A stretch of DNA of 39,258 bases from Desulfobacterales bacterium (GTDB lineage: Bacteria; Desulfobacterota; Desulfobacteria; Desulfobacterales; SpSt-501), in NCBI GenBank assembly GCA_030834695.1, contig JAUQXK010000030.1, positions 1 through 39,258 on the forward strand, read 5' to 3'. Both the position numbers and the translations under genes were made by a program. This document shows, piece by piece, positions 24,831 to 37,527 of this stretch (within the stretch, counting starts at the first letter, position 1; each line of letters starts with the position of its first letter). The notes under the pieces were generated by a model, which was given only the letters and a program-made list of their open reading frames with translations, did no database searches and was not told the origin of the DNA.

Positions 24831-25832
24831 CTAATGTTTCGGTGAGAGCTTTCCGGACATGCCGCCGGCGGGTGCGTTTCCGCCCAGCGCCCGGCTGATG
24901 GTGGTCACGTTGTGGTCGATCATGCCGATGTAGGTTCCCTCGTAGGTCCCGGGGTTTCCCATGGCGTCGGAGAAAAGCTCGCCGCCGATGGTCACGCGAT
25001 GGCTCCTCGCGGCTGCGCCTTCGATGAGCGCCTTTACGTTTTTATCGGACACGCTGGTTTCAACGAAGACGGCCGGGACGATGCGCGTGACCAGGATTTC
25101 GACGATGCGGTTGATGTCCTTGAGCCCCGCCTCGGATTCCGTCGAAATGCCCTGGATGCCGAGGACCTCGATGCCGTAGGCACGGCTCAGGTAGTTGAAG
25201 GCGTCGTGGGCGGTGACCAGGACCCGGCGGTTTTCCGGAATCGAAGCGATGGCTGTGCGGGAATATTCATCCAGCTCCTTGAGCCGGACCAGATAGGACT
25301 CCGCATTCTTGCCGTAGTAGGCAGCATTCGGCGGATCAAAGTCTGCGAGTGCTTTGGCGACGACCTCAACGGCCTTGCTCCACCCCTTGACGTCCATCCA
25401 CACGTGCGGGTCATCGTGGTTGGTCGTGTCGTCATGAATGAGATATTCCTTTTGCAACAGCTCGGTGACGGCGTGAACCGGCTTTTTAGCGCCGACCTTG
25501 GCCAGGATTTCCGTCATCTGGCCTTCGAGCAGAAGGCCGGAGTAAAAAATGATGTCGGATTTCATGAGCACGGCGACATCCCCGCGCGTGGGGTTGTACA
25601 CGTGCGGGTCCACGCCGGCGCCGATGATGTTGGTGACCACCGCCATGCTTCCGGCCACTTCCTTGACGATGTCGGCCACCATCCCGACCGTTGTGCCGAC
25701 CTTGATGGGATAGCTTCCCTTGAAGACCGCTCCGACAGCGAATTGCGCATACGAAACACCCGACAAGAAAGCCAGAATCGCTAACGTCCACCTAAATCTT
25801 CGAAAAATGCTTCTTGGCGGATACCCGTTCAT
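24831..25832 (-). CDS. Metal-binding lipocalin-free TroA/MntA-type substrate-binding protein
   Basis: Cluster 9 (ZnuA/TroA/PsaA) periplasmic binding protein of 333 residues that hands Mn, Zn or Fe to the permeases. An N-terminal membrane segment (about 14-36) acts as signal peptide; no lipobox Cys is seen. The four expected ligands are present: His77 (VDPHVYNP), His143 (DDPHVWMD), His209 (TAHDAFNY) and Asp289 (FSDAMG). The long His-rich loop of ZnuA proteins is missing (only HDDTTNHDD before His143), which favours Mn/Fe-type TroA over ZnuA. It is the first gene of the transporter operon, behind two palindromic operators; GGGGGAAGG precedes the ATG. Confidence 0.93.
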   Translation of the reverse strand: MNGYPPRSIFRRFRWTLAILAFLSGVSYAQFAVGAVFKGSYPIKVGTTVGMVADIVKEVAGSMAVVTNIIGAGVDPHVYNPTRGDVAVLMKSDIIFYSGLLLEGQMTEILAKVGAKKPVHAVTELLQKEYLIHDDTTNHDDPHVWMDVKGWSKAVEVVAKALADFDPPNAAYYGKNAESYLVRLKELDEYSRTAIASIPENRRVLVTAHDAFNYLSRAYGIEVLGIQGISTESEAGLKDINRIVEILVTRIVPAVFVETSVSDKNVKALIEGAAARSHRVTIGGELFSDAMGNPGTYEGTYIGMIDHNVTTISRALGGNAPAGGMSGKLSPKH

Positions 25833-25912
25833 GACCCTTCCCCCTTTTTGATCGTGGATCGCTTCAGGCCGATCTCCTGAAGATGCATGGATAGGAAAAT
25901 AAGCATGGCTTT

Positions 25913-25949
25913 AATTAGGTCAACCTAATTTTATTTTTAGGTCGACCTA
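25913..25949. promoter_or_regulatory. Tandem palindromic operators for the adjacent DtxR-family regulator
   Basis: Two palindromes share the core TAGGT-N2-ACCTA: AATTAGGTCAACCTAATT (25913-25930) and TAGGTCGACCTA (25938-25949), with centres 22 bases apart, about two helical turns. They lie between the regulator stop and the binding-protein start, in an AT-rich segment where the transporter promoter must be. The core resembles DtxR-family boxes (TTAGGT...CCTAA). Repression of the importer when metal is plentiful is the inferred function. Confidence 0.8.
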
Positions 25950-25966
25950 TTTTTAAGAGATGGGTA

Positions 25967-26644
25967 TCAATCGCGCAGGAGTTCAATCAAGATATGATCA
26001 GCGGTATTTTTGCCGATTACGTGATCGCGTGTCTGGCCGCCGCTGGTGACTCGCAGCGTTATCGAACCCTCATAACCCTCGGCATGGGTGATCGTCGCAA
26101 CCGTCCGGATGCCGATCTTCAGTACGCTCAGATAATGCAAGAGCTGGTCGGTCGGAGATTGCAGGCCGACAACCCGGATCTTCACCCCTGCATTCGCCTC
26201 CGAGAGTGTCATTTGGGATAAGTGGCTCATCTCCCCTCGGACCCCGGGTATGGGTTCGCCATGGGGGTCGAACTCCGGATGCCCCAGAAAATCCGCCAGG
26301 GCCTCTGTCAGTCGTTCGGATAAATGATGCTCCAAGAGATCGGCTTCCTGGTGGACTTCATCCCATGGCAGGCCGAGTACCTTGTGAAGAAAGGTCTCAA
26401 GCAGCCGGTGCCGCCGGACAATGTCGAGGGCCGCCTTTTCACCTTTGGCGGTCAAACGAACTCCATGCCGAGGCTCATGAACGAGCAACCGTGGCCGTTG
26501 AATTGCCAGTCGCTTGATCATCTCCGTCACGGAGGCGGATTTGATCAGGAGCTTTTCAGCGATGTGCGATGTCTTGGCGCGGCCCTCGGCTGTTTGCAAC
26601 TCATAGATGGCCTTAAGATAGTCTTCGACGTTGACCGACCGCAT
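25967..26644 (-). CDS. DtxR/MntR-family metal-dependent transcriptional regulator
   Basis: 225 residues: winged-helix DNA-binding domain (about 1-65; VEDYLKAIYEL, SVTEMIKRLA), dimerisation and metal-binding domain (about 66-140; RRHRLLETFLHKVLGLPWDEVHQEADLLEHHLS cut short in the middle) with the conserved Glu/His ligands in HQEADLLEHHLS, and a C-terminal FeoA/SH3-like domain (about 150-225) as in DtxR/IdeR rather than short MntR. It sits directly upstream of the Tro-type transporter on the same strand, with the operators between them. The DPHGEPIP segment before the FeoA domain is typical. Metal specificity (Mn versus Fe) cannot be settled. Confidence 0.93.
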   Translation of the reverse strand: MRSVNVEDYLKAIYELQTAEGRAKTSHIAEKLLIKSASVTEMIKRLAIQRPRLLVHEPRHGVRLTAKGEKAALDIVRRHRLLETFLHKVLGLPWDEVHQEADLLEHHLSERLTEALADFLGHPEFDPHGEPIPGVRGEMSHLSQMTLSEANAGVKIRVVGLQSPTDQLLHYLSVLKIGIRTVATITHAEGYEGSITLRVTSGGQTRDHVIGKNTADHILIELLRD

Positions 26645-26861
26645 AATGAGGCGCTCTTTCTTTAGAGTGATCCGGAGGAGGCGCGTTTGAGCCCAAGGCC
26701 TGATGGTGTTTTATCGTCAATGCGTAGAAACGTTAAGGACACGCTTACGAGTTTATGGAACGCTCGTTTGAGGCGAGTCATGGCGGATATTTACGGTGCG
26801 GTTCCGGGAAGTTGCGCTGCAACTTGCTTTTGCGCTTGCGCTCATTTCAGTTTGGTCGCCC

Positions 26862-27791
26862 TCATTGTTTCGCGAGAACGCAAAAGATAAAATCCCCGCC
26901 GTCATGCCCGGCTTTGTGGATGTCTGCATACTCAGGTGTTTGATCAGAATTCAAAATAACGGAGTTGCGAATTCTAGCGAATATTTCAGTCCCGGATTCA
27001 ATGCCAGAATTATCATTTAAGGCCAGAAGGAAGGCAGCGGAAAAAACAGAATGATTATTAATGCCGCCGCTATCCGAAACAGGCTCCAAGCCGCCTGAAG
27101 TCATTACGATTCTAGCCCTTTTTTCCGATAATCGTTTTAATGTATCCACAGCGCCAATGTCCGCTTTTGCGCTTCGCATTATTTTTCCAGAATAACAACT
27201 ATCCGAAATTATCAAAACATGCTTGGCTTGCATGGCCCTTATGGAGGACGTCAGTGAGGTGTTCGAGATCCAATTAGATTCGCTGCTTCTTGTCGCATCA
27301 ACCGCCAGCCAATATCCTTCATCAGCTTCTTTATCCAAAATACCATGTCCTGAATAGTATATGAGCAAGTTGTCCTTGTTTGTAAGACGCTTTCGGTATT
27401 CGGACAAGGCTTCAATAATCTGGTTTCGTGTGCAGTCGATCAGCGTCTCAACTTTATATCCGTATTTATTGCGGAGTATAGAGGCAACCGAATTGGCATC
27501 GTTGACGGCGCATTTTAATTTGTCGATCCATTTATAATCGTTTATCCCGATTACCAGCGCATAATAATTGCCATAAGAGAAATTACCGTCCGCTTTTGGA
27601 GACCCCGAAGCTGTTTTTGCCTGGCCGTCGTCCTCCGGGGCGGACGCGACCTTGATCCCCCTATTCGGATCTCCTTCCATTTTAGCCACTATCTGGTCGG
27701 GCTTATAATTGATATTCGATATCTTTGGACTGGCGCATCCGGCCGCCACCATGCTGAGAAGCAATGTTGTGATAATCGCCGCTCTTCGCAT
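26862..27791 (-). CDS. Caspase-like (peptidase C14) lipoprotein
   Basis: 309 residues from the ATG preceded by AGGGGG. An N-terminal lipoprotein signal ends VAAGC (Cys19). A linker (about 20-72) leads to a caspase-fold domain: YYALVIGINDYK (about 76-87), the catalytic His149 in IYYSGHG and catalytic Cys199 in IISDSCYSG. Both dyad residues are intact, so a peptidase cutting after basic or acidic residues is plausible. Other domains are absent. It follows the unknown lipoprotein gene by ten bases on the same strand. Base composition is more AT-rich than the flanks. Envelope-anchored metacaspase-like proteins may act in stress or cell-death pathways; that role is inferred. Confidence 0.88.
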   Translation of the reverse strand: MRRAAIITTLLLSMVAAGCASPKISNINYKPDQIVAKMEGDPNRGIKVASAPEDDGQAKTASGSPKADGNFSYGNYYALVIGINDYKWIDKLKCAVNDANSVASILRNKYGYKVETLIDCTRNQIIEALSEYRKRLTNKDNLLIYYSGHGILDKEADEGYWLAVDATRSSESNWISNTSLTSSIRAMQAKHVLIISDSCYSGKIMRSAKADIGAVDTLKRLSEKRARIVMTSGGLEPVSDSGGINNHSVFSAAFLLALNDNSGIESGTEIFARIRNSVILNSDQTPEYADIHKAGHDGGDFIFCVLAKQ

Positions 27792-27801
27792 TTGCGACCC
27801 C

Positions 27802-28743
27802 CTACTCGTCAAAATTGTTCATAATATTAACCAATTCAACCAGATAATTGTAAACAAGTAATTTTAGGTTGCCATAACCGGAAAAGTACAGTTCCCTATA
27901 TGCCCTCATTCTGGTGTCGACGATATAGTCGCCACCCTTCTCTAAGTATAATTTGCCCACCCTTGGGTTATTGACGTCCTTGTTGTTAAAAACCAACTCC
28001 GTCTTTGTTTTTCCCATTGAATCAAAAACAGTTAACTTTCCGAGGTGGTCTCTATTCAACCCGGCATGGACGCGGGTTGTGTTGGACGCAATATATCGTG
28101 ACATGACGACTTGGTCGTCCCATACTGCCAAACTGCTCAGGGTATCATTCATATGGGTGCCCTCTTTGGCCCAACTACTCTTGCAACCATACTCCTCTAT
28201 CAGCGAGAATAAATGTTCAAACCTGAAGGCTTTATTATTTATGCCAGTCTCAATGTTCAAAATACTTTTTGTGGTTGTGTAAAGCTTAAAATCTTTTTCT
28301 TCCCCTGGAGATAGTATTTGGGTGTCGCCTTCCCTTTTGGCATCTACGATTTGAGAATAAAATTTATTGATATTGGCCTGCAAGGCAATGTCAACCGGTT
28401 CGGCTTCGACAACTATCGCCCCGCAGCACCGTTCTAATACCGCAGCAAGCTTATCTTTTAAATCTGTTGAAATGCTTCCCGAGTATTCTGTCTTATTTAT
28501 CTCTAAAGTGCGAAATGGAAGGTTCCCTTTGATATTTTCAAGGAAGATGGAGCCGTTCAAATTGCTGGTGGCGGTTATCTTGATTCTCTTGTCTTTTAGT
28601 CGATCACATTTAATCTGGTCTATCCCTGCAATGCTATCTGCCGTTGGCGACAACTGTTCGGCACCGAACCTTTTCGGGATATTAACGTTCGGGGCACAGC
28701 CATATACAAGGAGCAAGCTCAGCAGAATTGTTATTAAGGGCAT
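27802..28743 (-). CDS. Unknown lipoprotein paired with the caspase-like gene
   Basis: 313 residues, not recognised. The first residues form a lipoprotein signal ending VYGC (Cys16). The remainder has no membrane segments; it begins with an extracytoplasmic region containing paired cysteines (ERCCGAIV) and ends with a hydrophobic helix (LKLLVYNYLVELVNIM). A GGGAAG site lies before the ATG. It shares AT-rich composition with the caspase gene, and the ten-base gap makes a two-gene operon likely. It could be an assembly partner or substrate of the caspase; nothing in the sequence decides. Confidence 0.75.
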   Translation of the reverse strand: MPLITILLSLLLVYGCAPNVNIPKRFGAEQLSPTADSIAGIDQIKCDRLKDKRIKITATSNLNGSIFLENIKGNLPFRTLEINKTEYSGSISTDLKDKLAAVLERCCGAIVVEAEPVDIALQANINKFYSQIVDAKREGDTQILSPGEEKDFKLYTTTKSILNIETGINNKAFRFEHLFSLIEEYGCKSSWAKEGTHMNDTLSSLAVWDDQVVMSRYIASNTTRVHAGLNRDHLGKLTVFDSMGKTKTELVFNNKDVNNPRVGKLYLEKGGDYIVDTRMRAYRELYFSGYGNLKLLVYNYLVELVNIMNNFDE

Positions 28744-30118: not shown

Positions 30119-31840
30119 ATGCGAATCCTATCCAATCTTGTCATCGTGTTGGCCATGTTAGTTTGCGCCTGTGGTGGGGGCGGCGGCGGAAGCAGCGACG
30201 GCAACGGGAGCGGGACCACCCCGCCGCCGACACCGACCGCATCCGCTGTGGTGCTCGCCGCAAACGATCTCGGGATGCATTGCATGGACCGGGAGTTTTC
30301 CATTTTCTCCATCCTGCCGCCCTTCAATGTTCTGAACGTTCAGGTGATCGGACATGACGCCAACGGCAGCCCGGTGCTGCTCGGCGATGCGGATGTGGAC
30401 GTACGCTACGGGGCGGCAGCGGATTCGCAGGGCTCCATCAACTCATACAGCAGCGGCAAAACCGACTTCTGGTCATATGCCAACGGTCTTTTCGGGACGA
30501 GCCTGGCGGACGGCGAGGGATTGACCGGCCTCTTCATGCCGGCCGACGATCCGCAGAGCCGCGGGGCGCAGCCCATGGGCTACAATCTGGCGGAGCAATG
30601 GTTTAGTGCGGGGGGCATCCCAATTACTCCGACAGATGACGGGGCACTGACTAACCCCTACCCTCTCATGGAAGTGACCGCCCATGACAAACAGACCGGC
30701 CAACAAATGGGAAGCCTCAAGGCGGTCGTGCCGGTTGCGACCGAAACCGAATGCCGCGGCTGCCACCTCACGGGCGGCATCGCTTCCACCCGCGGCGGCA
30801 TTACCTGGGCGAACGATGCGGACACCGAAGTGCAGAGCAAGAAAAACATCCTGCTCCTGCACGACGACTCGCATGCAACGAACCTGCAGAACTCGACCCC
30901 GGTTCTCTGTGCGGGCTGCCACTATTCTCCGGCGCTGGATTTAAGCGGCTCGGGCCCAGCGGGCAATCAGGTGGGAAACCACACCTTTTCTCAAGTGATG
31001 CACGGCTATCACGGCGAGCTCCAAAATGCAGGTCAGCCCATTTTCCCGGCGACGATCGCCTCCTGCTACGAATGCCACCCCGGCCAGATCACTCAGTGCC
31101 AGCGCGGGGCGATGAAGACCGGCGGCATGGACTGCATCGACTGCCACGGCGGCATGCTGGCGGTGGGCGGCGGGTTCAACCTGTTGGCCGGCGGCAGCAT
31201 CGATGGTACCAACGACGGCAATCCCCGCCGCCCATGGAAAGACCTGCCGCGCTGTCAGTCCTGCCACACCGGGGATGCCGTGAGCCACCTAAGCGGGGTC
31301 GATCTTGTTCCCGACGCTTCGGGTATTCGCCTGACGCAGGCCTACCGCACGGGAGATGATTCGGCCTCACCGCTGCTGGCGACCAACAAACGTTTTGCAG
31401 AGCAGGACAACACCCTGTATCGCTTCAGCAAGGGGCACGGCGGAGTGAGCTGCGAGAACTGCCACGGCAGCACCCACGCCGAGTGGCCGATCGCCGACGA
31501 TGCCGCCAACGACAACGTGGCGGCCAAGGCGCTCCAGGGATATTCCGGTAAGATCATCGAGTGCACGGTCTGCCATGCCCAGGAAAGCCTCCAGTTGACC
31601 ACCAACGGACCGCATGGGCTCCACAACGTGAACGACAACGGTTGGCTGGATGGAAATCATGGTGAGTTTTACGAACAGAACAAGTCTAGCTGTAAGGCCT
31701 GCCACGGATTGGACCTGCTCGGGACGCCTTTGGCTAAGATACCCACTGCCCGCAGCTTCACGGTAGAGGAAAACACCATCACTTATGCTCGGGGAGATTT
31801 GGTGGGGTGTGATCGTTGCCACTCTCGACCGAGCCTGTAA
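30119..31840 (+). CDS. Nine-heme c-type cytochrome lipoprotein
   Basis: 573 residues. A lipoprotein signal (VCAC, Cys18) is followed by a Gly/Ser/Pro-rich linker to about residue 40. The N-terminal third shows the NDLGMHCMDREF motif found in Geobacter-type cytochromes. Nine CXXCH heme sites begin at Cys212, 264, 316, 339, 379, 445, 482, 525 and 564. Likely an envelope or outer-membrane electron carrier for metal reduction or extracellular electron transfer. A strong AGGGGGG site precedes the ATG. It stands between the orphan receiver gene and a convergent PilZ-like gene. Confidence 0.92.
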   Translation: MRILSNLVIVLAMLVCACGGGGGGSSDGNGSGTTPPPTPTASAVVLAANDLGMHCMDREFSIFSILPPFNVLNVQVIGHDANGSPVLLGDADVDVRYGAAADSQGSINSYSSGKTDFWSYANGLFGTSLADGEGLTGLFMPADDPQSRGAQPMGYNLAEQWFSAGGIPITPTDDGALTNPYPLMEVTAHDKQTGQQMGSLKAVVPVATETECRGCHLTGGIASTRGGITWANDADTEVQSKKNILLLHDDSHATNLQNSTPVLCAGCHYSPALDLSGSGPAGNQVGNHTFSQVMHGYHGELQNAGQPIFPATIASCYECHPGQITQCQRGAMKTGGMDCIDCHGGMLAVGGGFNLLAGGSIDGTNDGNPRRPWKDLPRCQSCHTGDAVSHLSGVDLVPDASGIRLTQAYRTGDDSASPLLATNKRFAEQDNTLYRFSKGHGGVSCENCHGSTHAEWPIADDAANDNVAAKALQGYSGKIIECTVCHAQESLQLTTNGPHGLHNVNDNGWLDGNHGEFYEQNKSSCKACHGLDLLGTPLAKIPTARSFTVEENTITYARGDLVGCDRCHSRPSL

Positions 31841-32373: not shown

Positions 32374-34110
32374 TTAACGGAGGCCTCTTTCCGGCCGAGT
32401 GAAGCTGTGGCACCGGGAGCAGTCGTACTTTTTATCCTTCACGTGCTTATCGTGAACGGATTTGAAGCCCGGATTTTTCTTGCTCTCGTGGCATTGGCTG
32501 CAGGTCACTGCTTCGGAATTCTTCAACCCATATCCCAGATCACCTTTCAGATTGATGCGGGTGGTCGTTCCGTGACAGGCCGCACAGCTCAGCGCCTGGG
32601 ATGGCGGGCTGACCTGATGGTTCAGCAGCTGGAACGTGTCCGTTTTGACCCAGCTGAAAGCGTCATCTTCTGGGTAGCCCATGTTCCTAAGCCCAGCCTG
32701 GACTGCCAGCGTTGCCCGGTTCTGGGCATCCGCACTGCGGAAAAACACATTCGTGTCCAGAGCGATCAGCTCCCCGCTTTCATCCCGCATGGGCTGCTCG
32801 GCCGTCTTGTACTTGAACGGGTAGAGCTTGCTGTCCGGCGATGGGTCGTTCACGGCGCCGTCCGGCCTTGAGGTCGGGTAGGCTCCTGTTTTGGGGTCGA
32901 TTTCGGCGGCTTCCCCGAGAACGTAATTGTAGCTGTAACGGTTCCAGAACCGGTATTTCGGGGTCAGGTTGTTGGCCCTGGTGCTGGTCGGATGATACGG
33001 AACCGCCGTGGCATGCGAGCTCAGCCAGGTCCGGTGGGTTTCGGTGGCCTCGTCCGCCGCAGTATCGCCGGCATTTTTAGCGTAGGTGGGAATGTGGCAG
33101 GTCTGGCAGGCTACCCGCGCCACATGTCGGTTGATATCCGCTGTCGAGTGCCCGCTGGTGGTCGTCTTATTCGTATGGCAGTTGGTGCATGCCATCTCGA
33201 CATCCAGGTCGGTCTGGCGCAGGTCGGAGCCCCGGCCGGCGATCCGGTGGTTCTGGGTGACATGGCACTCCTGGCACTTCATGTCCGCTCCGGCAACGGC
33301 CATGTGCCGGTCAAACTGAACGTCGGTGGTGTTGGCGGTCGCCAGCGCGAGATCCCCGCGTTTGACCGCATCGCCGCCGCCGGCCTTGGCGTGGCAGGAC
33401 AGGCAGTTCGACCGTTCGGGCAGATGTACGGTCTGAACGGCCTTGCTCAGCGTAATGGTCATATTGGCCGTGTCCGGCACAAAGGTGCCGTTGACCTTGA
33501 TCCGTTTGTAATCCTTCTGATGGCAGACCAGGCAGTCGATGTTCTTGAGCTGCTCGTCGGTTGGAGTTGATGTGGCAACCGGTAGGGCACCCAGGCCGGC
33601 ATGGCAGCTGCCGCAGTCCGCCCAGTTGGCCAGAATGTTGATGCAGTAGCTGTTGACGGCGTTTGAAATCTTGCCCTGAATGGGCGGGCCGCTGGTGCGG
33701 TAAAGAGCCTCTCCCTCCCACTGATAATGAGTGGAGGCGTGCATATCACGGGCCTGCTCCTTATGGCAGGACAGGCACGCCCCGGGGGTTCCGTCCCAGG
33801 CAAGATTGGCATGGGGGTTTGATTCTCCGCCGCCCCCGCCGGTGGTGACTTGATCCACGCCGTTGCAGTCCTGGTCGATCCCGTCGTCGGGAATTTCCGG
33901 GGCACCGGGATAGATGGATGCGTTACGGTCGTTGCAGTCCACGGTTTTGGGGAAACCGTCCTTGTCGCGGTCAACGCGCCGGTCTGCAAGGTTGTCGCGG
34001 CTTCTATTTTCCCTGGACTCCGCGCCCCAGGAGTTTGAAAAAAACACCCACGACATTGCGCTCAACGCCAGGATTAAAATTCCTATTCGATAGTAGGCGT
34101 CCTTGGTCAT
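32374..34110 (-). CDS. Ten-heme cytochrome with MopE-type metal-binding motif, OTR-like
   Basis: 578 residues with an N-terminal signal/anchor (about 9-30). Residues 47-86 form a MopE-like metal-binding motif (DRDKDGFPKTVDCND, then YPGAPEIPDDGIDQDCNG). Ten CXXCH sites begin at Cys112, 166, 193, 236, 279, 308, 335, 509, 537 and 564; the order and the GGGDAVKRGDL segment recall octaheme tetrathionate reductase (OTR) relatives. Residues 340-505 lack hemes. A GGAGG site is six bases before the ATG. The long leader contains a c-di-AMP riboswitch, so expression probably responds to that nucleotide. Function as oxidoreductase or electron conduit is inferred. Confidence 0.9.
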   Translation of the reverse strand: MTKDAYYRIGILILALSAMSWVFFSNSWGAESRENRSRDNLADRRVDRDKDGFPKTVDCNDRNASIYPGAPEIPDDGIDQDCNGVDQVTTGGGGGESNPHANLAWDGTPGACLSCHKEQARDMHASTHYQWEGEALYRTSGPPIQGKISNAVNSYCINILANWADCGSCHAGLGALPVATSTPTDEQLKNIDCLVCHQKDYKRIKVNGTFVPDTANMTITLSKAVQTVHLPERSNCLSCHAKAGGGDAVKRGDLALATANTTDVQFDRHMAVAGADMKCQECHVTQNHRIAGRGSDLRQTDLDVEMACTNCHTNKTTTSGHSTADINRHVARVACQTCHIPTYAKNAGDTAADEATETHRTWLSSHATAVPYHPTSTRANNLTPKYRFWNRYSYNYVLGEAAEIDPKTGAYPTSRPDGAVNDPSPDSKLYPFKYKTAEQPMRDESGELIALDTNVFFRSADAQNRATLAVQAGLRNMGYPEDDAFSWVKTDTFQLLNHQVSPPSQALSCAACHGTTTRINLKGDLGYGLKNSEAVTCSQCHESKKNPGFKSVHDKHVKDKKYDCSRCHSFTRPERGLR

Positions 34111-34384
34111 GGTTAACCTCCTGCGCTGGTGATTGCTTTCTATGTGAAACCATCAGCCGCTGCTTGGGGCGGTGATGGTGATATCAAACCACCCGGATCC
34201 GACGATCCAAAATGGACCGGAACGGACCGGGAGCTATCAACTCGTTCGTTCAGGTTGCAGAGAACTCGGGCGATAAGTTGGAATACAGGGATGTTGCTTA
34301 AAAATAGCAGATAAGCATGCGGTTCACCTCCGGAATTGAGTTGGGTGGAGGAAAGACCTCCGTTCAATTCCGAAGGTTTTCCTC
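34111..34384. other. Leader of the ten-heme cytochrome gene downstream of the riboswitch
   Basis: About 275 bases of probable 5' untranslated RNA (minus). A nested hairpin (34327-34376) has outer arms CCTCCGGAATTGA / TCAATTCCGAAGG (one mismatch) and inner GGAGG-AAAGA-CCTCC. In the transcript its 3' arm contains GGAGGTGAAC, a Shine-Dalgarno eight bases before an ATG that opens a six-codon frame (MLICYF). This could be a leader peptide controlled by the hairpin. No poly-T terminator was found. Confidence 0.5.
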
Positions 34385-34505
34385 ATCGACGCCGACGAGG
34401 TTAGCTGATGGGCTAGGGCCGAAGAGGATTACCCTTCGCCGATTGGCGATGCGCCCCGATGAATTGGATCCCCCGTTCTCGATGCTTTTCGAGATTAGGC
34501 GTTAG
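34385..34505 (-). promoter_or_regulatory. ydaO-yuaA cyclic-di-AMP riboswitch
   Basis: Reading the minus strand from about 34505: CGCCTAATCTCG, then a CTCGA...TCGAG stem, ACGGGGGATCC, ATCGGGGCGCATCGCC, a GCGAAGG..CCTCTTCGGC stem, then CATCAGCTAACCTCGTCGGC and GTCGATGAGG. Segments CGGGGGA.CC, GGGG.GAATC-like and CAGCTAACCTCGT.GGCG are the signature of the ydaO-yuaA class; ACGCC and GGCGT pair as P1. An alternative CCTCGTCG/CGATGAGG stem would compete with P1, a plausible switching element. TTGACA at 34544-34539 is a candidate -35 box, with a weak -10 near 34521. Confidence 0.88.
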
Positions 34506-34824
34506 GCTGGAATTATGGTTATCCTACCCTGTGGCATATGTCAAGGCTTCATGAAAATAGCGCCTAATTTTATTCGAAAACAGCAATTGCACGCATGCAT
34601 GATAGAGGGTGGGAAAGACCACGATGCATTGCACCGCCTACCAAATACAGTCTTTACCCCATATCCGCCCCCAAATTAATATGTTAGGCTCACATAGTAA
34701 CAAAAAGCCATGAGCCTTTTCCCAACAACGTGTATATTTACTTTAATTATAACGTGATAAGTTGGCTAGAAAGGTTCGCATACATCTTGAAAAAAAATCT
34801 TTCGTCCCCTCATTTTGACGGACA
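34506..34824. other. Promoter region between the riboswitch leader and the sigma-54 activator gene
   Basis: 319 bases separating divergent transcripts. It must hold the promoters of both: the TTGACA near 34544 on the minus strand is the only strong candidate box seen. The region upstream of the activator is AT-rich with no readable -24/-12 site. Confidence 0.4.
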
Positions 34825-37527
34825 ATGACGATTAAGGACAACAAGCGGCTTTATGCTTCGGTTCTGGTTTGGATCTCGGGATTCTGCGGGCTTTACATCA
34901 CTGCTGTCTACAGCTTCCCCCTTTTCCATTCATTGGCCGAAATGTCCAGCACGGCCGTTGCCGTAGCGATTTTCATGCTCGTCTGGAATGTCCGCCGATC
35001 TTTGGATAACACCTACCTGCTTTTTATTGGTGTGGCTTACCTCTTTATCGGTTGCCTTGAACTTATCCACGTCTTGGCCTTCAAAGGCATGGAGGTGTTC
35101 AGCGGGCATGATGAAAACCTCTCGATACAACTCTGGGTGGCTGCCCGTTACATCGAGAGTATTTCACTTCTGATCGCACCTCTTCTTGTTGGAAGAAAGT
35201 TGGACCTGAGGTTCGTCTTCACAGGATATGCTCTGGTTTTTTCCATTCTCCTGGGTGCGATTTTTCTCTGGGAGGTTTTCCCCGCCTGTTACGTGCCGGG
35301 GATAGGGCTGACCACCTTCAAGACCGCAAGTGAGTACGCCATCAGCGCTTTTCTGATAGCCTCCATCGCCATCCTGGTCAAGAACCGGGAAAACTTCGAC
35401 CCGGAAATGGTCCGGTTGCTGGTGGCGTCCATCGCCCTGTCCTTCGTTTCGGAATTTTTTTTCTCAAGCTTCGAGCATACTTACGGATTCCTGGGCCTTT
35501 GCGGCCATTTTTTGAGGCTCCTGGCTTTTTATTTTATTTACAAAGCCATCATCGAGCTAGGGACGGCCAAGCCGTTCAACATGCTTTTCAAAAACCTGGT
35601 TGAGAGTGAGAGATCTCTGAAAAAGTCCCATGACGAGCTGGAGTTGCGGGTCGAAGAGCGAACGGCCGATCTGACCAAAACCTGCGAACAGCTTTCGCGG
35701 CAGATCGAGGAGCGCACGCGCGCCGAAGAAGCGCTGCAAAAATCCGAGTTGAAATACCGCATCCTGGCAGACCACAACTATGACTGGGAGTGGTGGCGGG
35801 ACCAGCAGGGAAACTCTATCTATGTCTCACCTTCATGCGAGAAGATCTCCCAGCACACACCCGAGGAATTTTCAGCTGATCCGGATTTGATTTCCAAAAT
35901 CCTTCACCCGGAAGACCGACCTTCCTTCTCAAAGCATTTAAGCGAAATTGAGGACCAAGGCCTGTCAGGTGAGATTGAGTTTCGAATCATTCGGCCGGAC
36001 GGATCCGTCCGATGGATCGCCCACGCCTGCCAACCCGTTTTTGATGAAAACGGTAAATTTTTAGGCCGGCGTGGCAGCAACCGCGATATCACCCAGCGCA
36101 AGGAGGCCGAAAGGTCACTGAACGAAAGCGAAGTGCGCTACCGCAGCTTGGTAGATTGCATGAACGAAGGCTTCGCCATCGGGGATGAAAAAGGAACTTT
36201 CGTCTATGCCAACAATAAACTATGCGAAATGTTAGGATGTGCCTATGAAGAGGTTGTCGGTCGGCCTGCGCAAAATTGGCTGTCGGAGGCCGGCCGCCAA
36301 ATCCTCAGCGAGCAGATGATCGAACGGGAAAAAGGGGGGCGAAAGCCTTATGAAATCGAATGGAAAAGAGGAGATGGCTCAACCCGCCATGCGTTGGTCT
36401 CGCCGACGCCTCTCTTCGGGGAAAATGGTCGATTCAAAGGAAGCTCTGCGGTCATCACCGATATCACCGAACTTAAGAAGGCGGAGGAGTCATTGCGCAG
36501 AGCCTTATCTGAAAATCAGAAACTGCGGGAGCGGCTCGAGGCCGAAAACACCTATTTTCGCCAGGAAAGCGAAACAAGACACCAGTTCGGCAATATCATC
36601 GGCCAAAGCAACGCCCTGAAGCATGTCCTCTACCGGGCGGAGCAGGTGGCGGCCACGAACGCAACGGTTCTAATCCTCGGCGAGACGGGCGCGGGAAAGG
36701 AACTGATCGCCGCTGCAATTCACCAGATGAGTTCTCGCAAGGACATGCCCTTGATCACGGTCAACTGTGCCGCGCTACCGCCGCATCTGATCGAAAGCGA
36801 GCTTTTTGGCCGCGAGAAGGGCGCCTTCACCGGATCGGATGCCCGGCAGGCAGGCCGGTTCGAAATCGCCGACGGATCCACACTTTGCTTGGACGAAATT
36901 GGTGAGCTGCCGATGGAGGTGCAGGCCAAGCTGCTGAGGGTGGTTCAGAACAATGAATTCGAGCGGCTGGGCTCTCCCAGAACCATCCGGGTGAATGTGC
37001 GCATCATTGCAACGACCAATCGGAATCTTGAGGAAGAGGTCCACAAGGGCCGCTTCCGCCAGGATCTCTATTACCGCCTGAACGTCTATCCTCTCACCGT
37101 TCCACCGTTGCGGCAGCGCAGGGACGACATCCCGTTTTTGGTCCAGTTTTTTTTGGAGCAATATGCCAGGAACCTTGGTAAGGAGTTCACCTCAATCCAA
37201 AATGAGGTGATGAGGATGCTCCAGGAATACGATTGGCCCGGAAACGTACGCGAGTTGAGAAACGTCATCGAGCGCGCCGTTATTCTTTGCCCCGGTCCTG
37301 TCTTACAGATGTTCGATCGACTCGAGAATCAGGCCTGCTCCAATTCTTCGGCAGGCCTGCGTACGATGGAGGAAACCGAGCGTGAACAGATCCTCAGGAC
37401 GCTTGGCGAAACCCGGTGGCGAATCAACGGTGCCACGGGGGCCTCCGCGATCCTTGGCCTGCACCCAAGCACTTTAAGGGCGCGAATGCACAAGCTCGGT
37501 ATACGTCGCCCTGAAACCAATAATTAG
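34825..37527 (+). CDS. MASE3-PAS-PAS sigma-54-dependent transcriptional activator
   Basis: 900 residues. An N-terminal MASE3-type membrane sensor with about seven helices (about 10-235) is followed by a coiled coil (about 245-300), two PAS domains with PAC tails (about 305-425 and 430-550), a short coiled coil and an AAA+ sigma-54 interaction domain: Walker A GETGAGKE from 619, the GAFTGSD loop from 666 that contacts sigma-54, and Walker B LDEIGEL near 689. A Fis-type helix-turn-helix closes the chain (about 855-895; [22 protein letters not shown] cut). All catalytic and contact motifs are intact. A membrane-embedded activator of this layout is unusual compared with soluble enhancer-binding proteins. 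No clear Shine-Dalgarno. The -24/-12 site downstream is its probable target. Confidence 0.93.

Follow-up and report, generated by a model that had tools for sequence, protein, structure and literature searches.

The DNA analysed here (the window) is a stretch of 39,258 nucleotides from a Desulfobacterales bacterium. Its minus strand carries a gene for a decaheme c-type cytochrome that bears a MopE-type metal-binding motif at its N terminus (32374-34110) and, upstream of it, a full-length c-di-AMP riboswitch aptamer (34511-34375) whose position and strand fit a sense leader of the cytochrome gene. When the whole window was compared with Rfam by cmscan, the aptamer matched RF00379 at 83.5 bits against a cut-off of 38 (E = 3.6e-18), covering positions 1-134 of the 134 in the model; this was the sole Rfam match at the gathering threshold in the window. 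A preliminary description had assigned the leader to the ydaO-yuaA class, pointing to conserved segments and a P1 helix. The covariance match bears out this assignment, and the elements were located: CGGGGGATCC at 34475-34466, CAGCTAACCTCGTCGGCG, and the P1 strands (34501-34498 with 34393-34390, and 34476-34471 with 34400-34395). Chance or an artefact as the source of the match was ruled out by the E value and by the copies found in other genomes. We regard the aptamer at this position as confirmed.

Read along the minus strand, the leader begins with a promoter-like pair (34516-34544) made of TTGACA (34544-34539), a 17-nt spacer, and a weak −10 element, TAACCA (34521-34516). The aptamer follows, then an expression platform that ends in GGAGGT (34331-34326), and an ATG at 34318. 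This start codon opens a leader ORF of six codons (MLICYF, 34298-34318), and 187 nt of further leader separate its end from the cytochrome ORF (34110-32374), which has a Shine-Dalgarno sequence of its own (GGAGG, 34121-34117). The span first proposed for the riboswitch, 34544-34327, runs from the −35-like TTGACA through the last base of the Shine-Dalgarno GGAGG of the platform (34331-34327).

The cytochrome has 578 amino acids, an N terminus that looks signal-like by eye, and 10 CXXCH motifs counted in the translation. Pfam recognized the MopE motif (46.4 bits; cut-off, 27) and multiheme cytochrome domains, so the target behind the aptamer is indeed the ten-heme, MopE-containing protein that had been described. 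Its residues 111-522 align to positions 22-436 of the 440 in TIGR04315, the octaheme tetrathionate reductase family. However, its score of 274.2 bits falls below the NCBIfam cut-off of 375 for that family, and it differs in its ten CXXCH motifs and its N-terminal MopE motif. Octaheme cytochromes accompany some hydrogenases (Ohc). A gene for a MASE3-PAS sigma-54 activator (34825-37527) lies upstream of the cytochrome gene and divergent from it, beside its promoter, and is possibly a second regulator of the cytochrome. Elsewhere in the window, a second multiheme cytochrome gene with MtrC/MtrF-like domain matches (30119-31840) is convergent with the first, and genes for a ZnuA-like binding protein, a regulator of the iron-dependent-repressor family, and a caspase-domain (C14) protein are clustered at 24831-28743.

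The TTGACA/TAACCA pair of the window was not listed by a consensus promoter scan requiring 9 of 12 matches. Across 24 related loci, TTGACA was present upstream of the aptamer in 21 and absent in 3. It lay 52 to 68 nt upstream of the CGGGG strand in 20 loci; the 21st is L024, whose anchor was set 16 nt too far upstream in both the promoter-box scan and the full-length folding, so that its values from these two analyses are to be disregarded. A transcription start downstream of the aptamer, named in the preliminary description as a finding that would overturn its reading, is made less likely by this upstream box.

We then consider the expression platform, in which three helices are predicted. 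The anti-aptamer hairpin (34381-34400) pairs CCTCGTCG at 34400-34393 with CGATGAGG at 34388-34381 and competes with aptamer P1; this competing stem, already claimed from the letters alone, appears in the unconstrained minimum-energy fold of the window leader. The P1 strand CCTCGT is complementary to ATGAGG of the platform, and this complementarity is conserved in the genus, so that the platform pairing is predicted to exclude the aptamer pairing. In the anti-sequester hairpin (34348-34384), GAGGAAA (34384-34378) pairs with TTTCCTC (34354-34348) and ACCTTCG (34377-34371) with CGGAGGT (34362-34356). In the Shine-Dalgarno sequester (34326-34377), ACCTTCGGAATTGA at 34377-34364 pairs with TCAATTCCGGAGGT at 34339-34326.

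The platform could be aligned for 17 of the 20 genus loci (L015, L016, and L027 align badly and were excluded), giving 16 distinct sequences. The sequester was 92.8% paired (slid controls, at most 59.5%; 2 of 500 shuffles reached the same value), the anti-sequester 95.5% (at most 63.2%; 142 of 500), and the six outer pairs of the anti-aptamer hairpin 93.8% (at most 68.8%; 500 of 500). Pairs changed on both sides numbered two in the sequester, one in the anti-sequester, and none in the anti-aptamer hairpin, and the first two counts were no better than those of about half of the shuffles. Because the platform hardly varies, covariation is scarce and the shuffle test unfavorable. A fourth, local GGAGG/CCTCC helix scored no better than its slid version.

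The order of elements in the genus is the same with small variations: switch strand GAUGAGGAAA, anti-Shine-Dalgarno ACCUUCGG, first GGAGGU, UUUCCUCC, Shine-Dalgarno sequence, and start codon. A start codon stands 6 to 9 nt past the Shine-Dalgarno sequence in 19 of the 20 loci, L027 having none there. In 8 of these 19 loci (KUP, short FnIII, and FG-GAP genes) it is the main gene's own start, which argues that the platform acts on translation there. At the cytochrome and hydrogenase loci, a leader ORF begins there instead, with 6 codons in the window and 22 codons in each of its homologues at L024 and L026. In five loci (L001, L002, L013, L014, and L018) the platform ATG opens a conserved ORF of 56 to 59 codons before the next gene, an FnIII gene in four of the five. 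With its hydrophobic core like IPxYHILILAWCALVILYGE, this ORF possibly encodes a small membrane protein whose synthesis the riboswitch would govern. By eye, the genus order of elements recurs in many KUP leaders from other genera; four look terminator-like instead.

Matches to RF00379 occurred at six places in the genome of the window. Among 58 genomes of relatives, 6 had matches: five of the seven that belong to the genus and one outside it. Within the genus the aptamer occurs at 20 places (6, 8, 1, 1, and 4 per genome), of which one scores just below the cut-off and another is truncated at the end of a contig. Using ORF maps and family searches, we assigned the downstream genes. Eight encode FnIII or FnIII/PKD proteins (seven by scan, L016 by eye), and one encodes an FG-GAP protein. 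Three are KUP transporter genes, of which one was scanned and two were recognized by likeness, and one is TrkH; three more encode GpgS-like glucosyl-3-phosphoglycerate synthases (327 to 357 bits against the model's 700). At one locus a small ORF and then a PAS ORF follow the aptamer, and the remaining places lead into two decaheme cytochrome genes and one hydrogenase operon.

The second decaheme cytochrome belongs to a sister species (G002). It is orthologous to the cytochrome of the window (83% identity) and lies behind its own aptamer. Between the two loci the aptamer is 82.5% and the platform 85.3% identical, whereas the leader between platform and gene is 57.3% identical; this better conservation of aptamer and platform speaks for selection at the cytochrome gene. 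The hydrogenase operon is found in the same species, on contig C72 (L029:1-4819). This contig starts inside an aptamer and continues with the platform, a Tat-signal [NiFe]-hydrogenase small subunit, the large subunit, and a decaheme cytochrome, all in one apparent operon. The cytochrome is 71% identical to the window protein, and by eye its start resembles that of a lipoprotein. The operon's leader aligns with that of the window at 81% identity over 280 bp. This match takes in the platform, the greater part of the aptamer, and about 115 nt past the platform ATG, where identity is 67.5% (81 of 120 columns). The two leaders thus share an origin. A third homologue (G005) is truncated where its contig begins, which leaves its leader unreadable. 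In a tblastn search of 24 of the 77 loci from wider relatives (L048 to L071) and the window, a hydrogenase stood beside the cytochrome only at L049, which is the same C72 locus. The window genome has six hydrogenase large-subunit matches, at least two of which are pieces of one gene. The best of them, on contig C134, is without an aptamer, and a weak partial match on contig C6 lies about 13 kb from one.

RF00379 matches were found in 19 of 389 genomes class-wide and in 52 of 395 phylum-wide, two sets that overlap in genomes. Outside the genus we classified 74 of 76 loci; two were dropped for want of the anchor motif, and among the 74, one is below the cut-off and one is too short for a gene. 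These Desulfobacterota loci precede 29 KUP genes, 29 genes of the KimA/APC type (21 close, 8 at 21 to 31% identity), and 4 KdpA genes, together 62 of 74. The other 12, judged by eye, include TrkA-like, RlpA-like, and 3D-domain-like proteins and KdpA behind another gene; the small secreted proteins, by eye, are RlpA-like in L168 and 3D-domain-like in L200, L201, and L202. With the decaheme cytochrome of the window and the hydrogenase small subunit as the two blastp queries (E up to 1e-4), there were no matches behind the 74 aptamers. As far as sampled, electron-transfer targets of these two kinds appear to be a feature of this genus. A tree built from 49 aptamers placed 18 genus copies beside seven KUP copies from other genera and separate from the main KimA group; the remaining two of the 20, L015 and L016, fell among other KUP copies. 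Many deep forks are unsupported. L006 paired with L021 (100/100) and L004, weakly, with L024 (90/56). A KUP-type cassette thus seems to have spread within the genus to secreted, osmolyte, and electron-transfer genes.

The preliminary description had also suggested a search of the genome for a DisA or CdaA cyclase. We found one protein with a DAC domain, a CdaA-like diadenylate cyclase of 478 amino acids in which HDGA and GTRHR are present. It scored well above the cut-off for Pfam DAC and below that for TIGR00159 (179.4 against 188.8). The genome also encodes one PgpH-type 7TMR-HDED protein.

The reading we prefer is that a c-di-AMP riboswitch operates in the mRNA leader of the decaheme cytochrome gene, as one copy of a KUP-derived cassette that spread in the genus; we give it a probability of about 0.72. 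The cassette would comprise promoter, aptamer, Shine-Dalgarno platform, and start codon, and in relatives it would belong to KUP potassium transporters. We hold this to be the best explanation because of the full-length match, the genus copies, the sister-species loci, the platform helices exceeding their slid controls, TTGACA, and the CdaA-like and PgpH-type proteins. Weighed against it are a Shine-Dalgarno sequence predicted to be hidden in both states, small differences in opening cost, scarce covariation, a leader ORF shortened to 6 codons where its homologues have 22, and the TIGR00159 score of the cyclase.

From the conserved, mutually exclusive helices we infer that c-di-AMP binding would drive a strand exchange. 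With ligand, CCUCGU would be held in the aptamer, and GAGGAAA would be free to pair with UUUCCUC; ACCUUC would be taken up by the first GGAGGU, leaving the Shine-Dalgarno sequence, which is the second GGAGGU, open. Without ligand, CGAUGAGG would pair with CCUCGUCG, and ACCUUC would close the Shine-Dalgarno sequence. Because the ligand keeps CCUCGU in the aptamer and frees GAGGAAA for the anti-sequester, this pairing logic predicts that c-di-AMP activates (ON), a sign that we favor slightly over even odds. The coupling of the opened leader-ORF site to the cytochrome start 187 nt downstream is the least certain step. We would guess that ribosomes on the six-codon ORF may shield the leader RNA from Rho or RNases.

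Folding energies, taken from full-length folds, opening costs, and shortened transcripts, gave no clear answer on the sign of control. In full-length folding with and without the aptamer helix, the Shine-Dalgarno sequence of 20 of 23 loci had an unpaired probability no higher than 0.04 in either state, L027 being omitted and the L024 value resting on its misplaced anchor. The difference between states in the cost of opening it averaged +0.89 kcal/mol over 24 loci (11 above +1, 4 below −1; window, −0.8). For 27 KUP loci of other genera the mean was +0.16 (8 above +1, 7 below −1; a 28th locus, L133, gave no start and was dropped). When the transcript was ended before the Shine-Dalgarno strand, the switch strand lay in the anti-sequester in 22 of 23 bound-state folds (L136 left out). 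In ligand-free folds of the same transcript, the anti-aptamer hairpin won in 8 of 23, the window among them at 0.60.

The strongest rival is an OFF switch, to which we assign somewhat less than an even chance: c-di-AMP would lower expression, as it does through the kdp and kimA riboswitches of Bacillus, with the platform pairings forming in another order. The portions of the sources at hand describe the kdp riboswitch of Bacillus thuringiensis as an OFF switch (PMC6488665) and report KimA and KtrAB of B. subtilis as negatively regulated (PMC7288161). OFF is also the physiological expectation, since K+ importers stand under the same platform in the genus, and the folding energies have no clear preference for ON. 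However, the known OFF cases, in the part of PMC6488665 at hand, use an intrinsic terminator, and a terminator scan found none between the window aptamer and the cytochrome gene. The strand-exchange logic and the nearly constant anti-sequester in bound-state folds of the shortened transcript also point to ON.

We consider it improbable that the aptamer is functional yet uncoupled from the cytochrome, the cassette being a relic that governs a degenerate leader ORF. The shortness of this ORF relative to its homologues and the cytochrome's separate ribosome site well past it would fit such a relic. The conservation of aptamer and platform over the remaining leader between the two cytochrome loci, the retained promoter-like box, and the identical layout at the hydrogenase and GpgS loci argue against it. 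Finally, a variant of the fold that binds another nucleotide instead of c-di-AMP is thinkable, as the window genome also has GEMM-I riboswitches (5 places, 3 above cut-off), two homologous cytochromes elsewhere use GEMM-I, and the window has GGGGCGCAU where the Rfam consensus has GGGGUGAAU, but the full-length, high-scoring match, the same RNAs before KUP and GpgS-like genes in this genome, and the encoded CdaA-like and PgpH-type proteins make it highly improbable.

The GEMM-I riboswitches on cytochrome homologues were found upstream of the gene in 2 of 16 loci (L055:3255-3331 and L063:1276-1480, in tandem in the latter). Inspection by eye shows a terminator-like stem after each of them, with the 3′ strand of the aptamer serving as the 5′ strand of the stem; this is least clear for the first of the tandem. 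This arrangement would be an ON design, with cGAMP or c-di-GMP as the likely ligand. Seven further homologue loci, searched with Rfam at E up to 0.5, had no riboswitch; one tRNA and one sub-threshold sRNA match were seen.

c-di-AMP is a signal of K+, osmolyte, and cell wall state. The control of electron transfer by c-di-AMP, as the preliminary description proposed, is plausible on sequence grounds and is strengthened by the sister-species copies, one of them before a hydrogenase operon. If the c-di-AMP riboswitch reading is true, respiratory electron transfer would join the c-di-AMP regulon (the decaheme cytochrome in two species, the hydrogenase-cytochrome operon in one), a hint that a signal of salt and pressure may have a part in tuning the respiration of this group as well. 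Together with the GEMM-I copies on two homologues, this suggests that cyclic-dinucleotide control of the cytochrome family arose more than once, with different sensors. A wider picture strikes us as doubtful: c-di-AMP would be an activator in the genus, tying turgor or K+ state to respiratory electron transfer via the duplicated KUP-type cassette, with Shine-Dalgarno strand exchange on the decaheme genes and the hydrogenase operon, while relatives would use GEMM-I on the same cytochrome family, the lineages having swapped the messenger and kept the target. The system makes it possible to ask directly whether translation can be the level at which a c-di-AMP riboswitch works, and whether such a riboswitch can be an ON switch.

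Compared with known systems, the locus resembles other c-di-AMP (ydaO/yuaA) riboswitches in its full-length aptamer above cut-off, its leader position, and the c-di-AMP enzymes in the genome. It differs in its target, a decaheme cytochrome and, in the sister species, a hydrogenase operon. The targets listed in the parts of the reviews at hand (PMC7288161 among them) are genes for K+ and amino acid transport, cell wall, osmotic, and sporulation functions. In the literature consulted, including the portions at hand of PMC9481103, PMC8835794, PMC7266159, PMC6488665, PMC6456294, PMC11224092, PMC7288161, and PMC10117731, we found no c-di-AMP riboswitch on a cytochrome or hydrogenase gene, a weak absence with the founding papers outside this set. 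The kdp c-di-AMP riboswitch has a terminator in the account at hand (PMC6488665), whereas the window has a Shine-Dalgarno platform. Cyclic-dinucleotide riboswitches on multiheme cytochromes are not new, since cGAMP (GEMM-Ib) riboswitches upstream of Geobacter cytochromes are established (PMC6456294, in the part at hand). The likeness to these lies in RNA control of multiheme cytochromes by a cyclic dinucleotide. In contrast, the Geobacter aptamer and ligand are unrelated to those discussed here and the platforms there are terminators, and RF01051 (GEMM-I) had no match at gathering in the window, the cytochrome leader included. Set beside these systems, the locus apparently joins a known aptamer class to a new target class by way of a Shine-Dalgarno platform.
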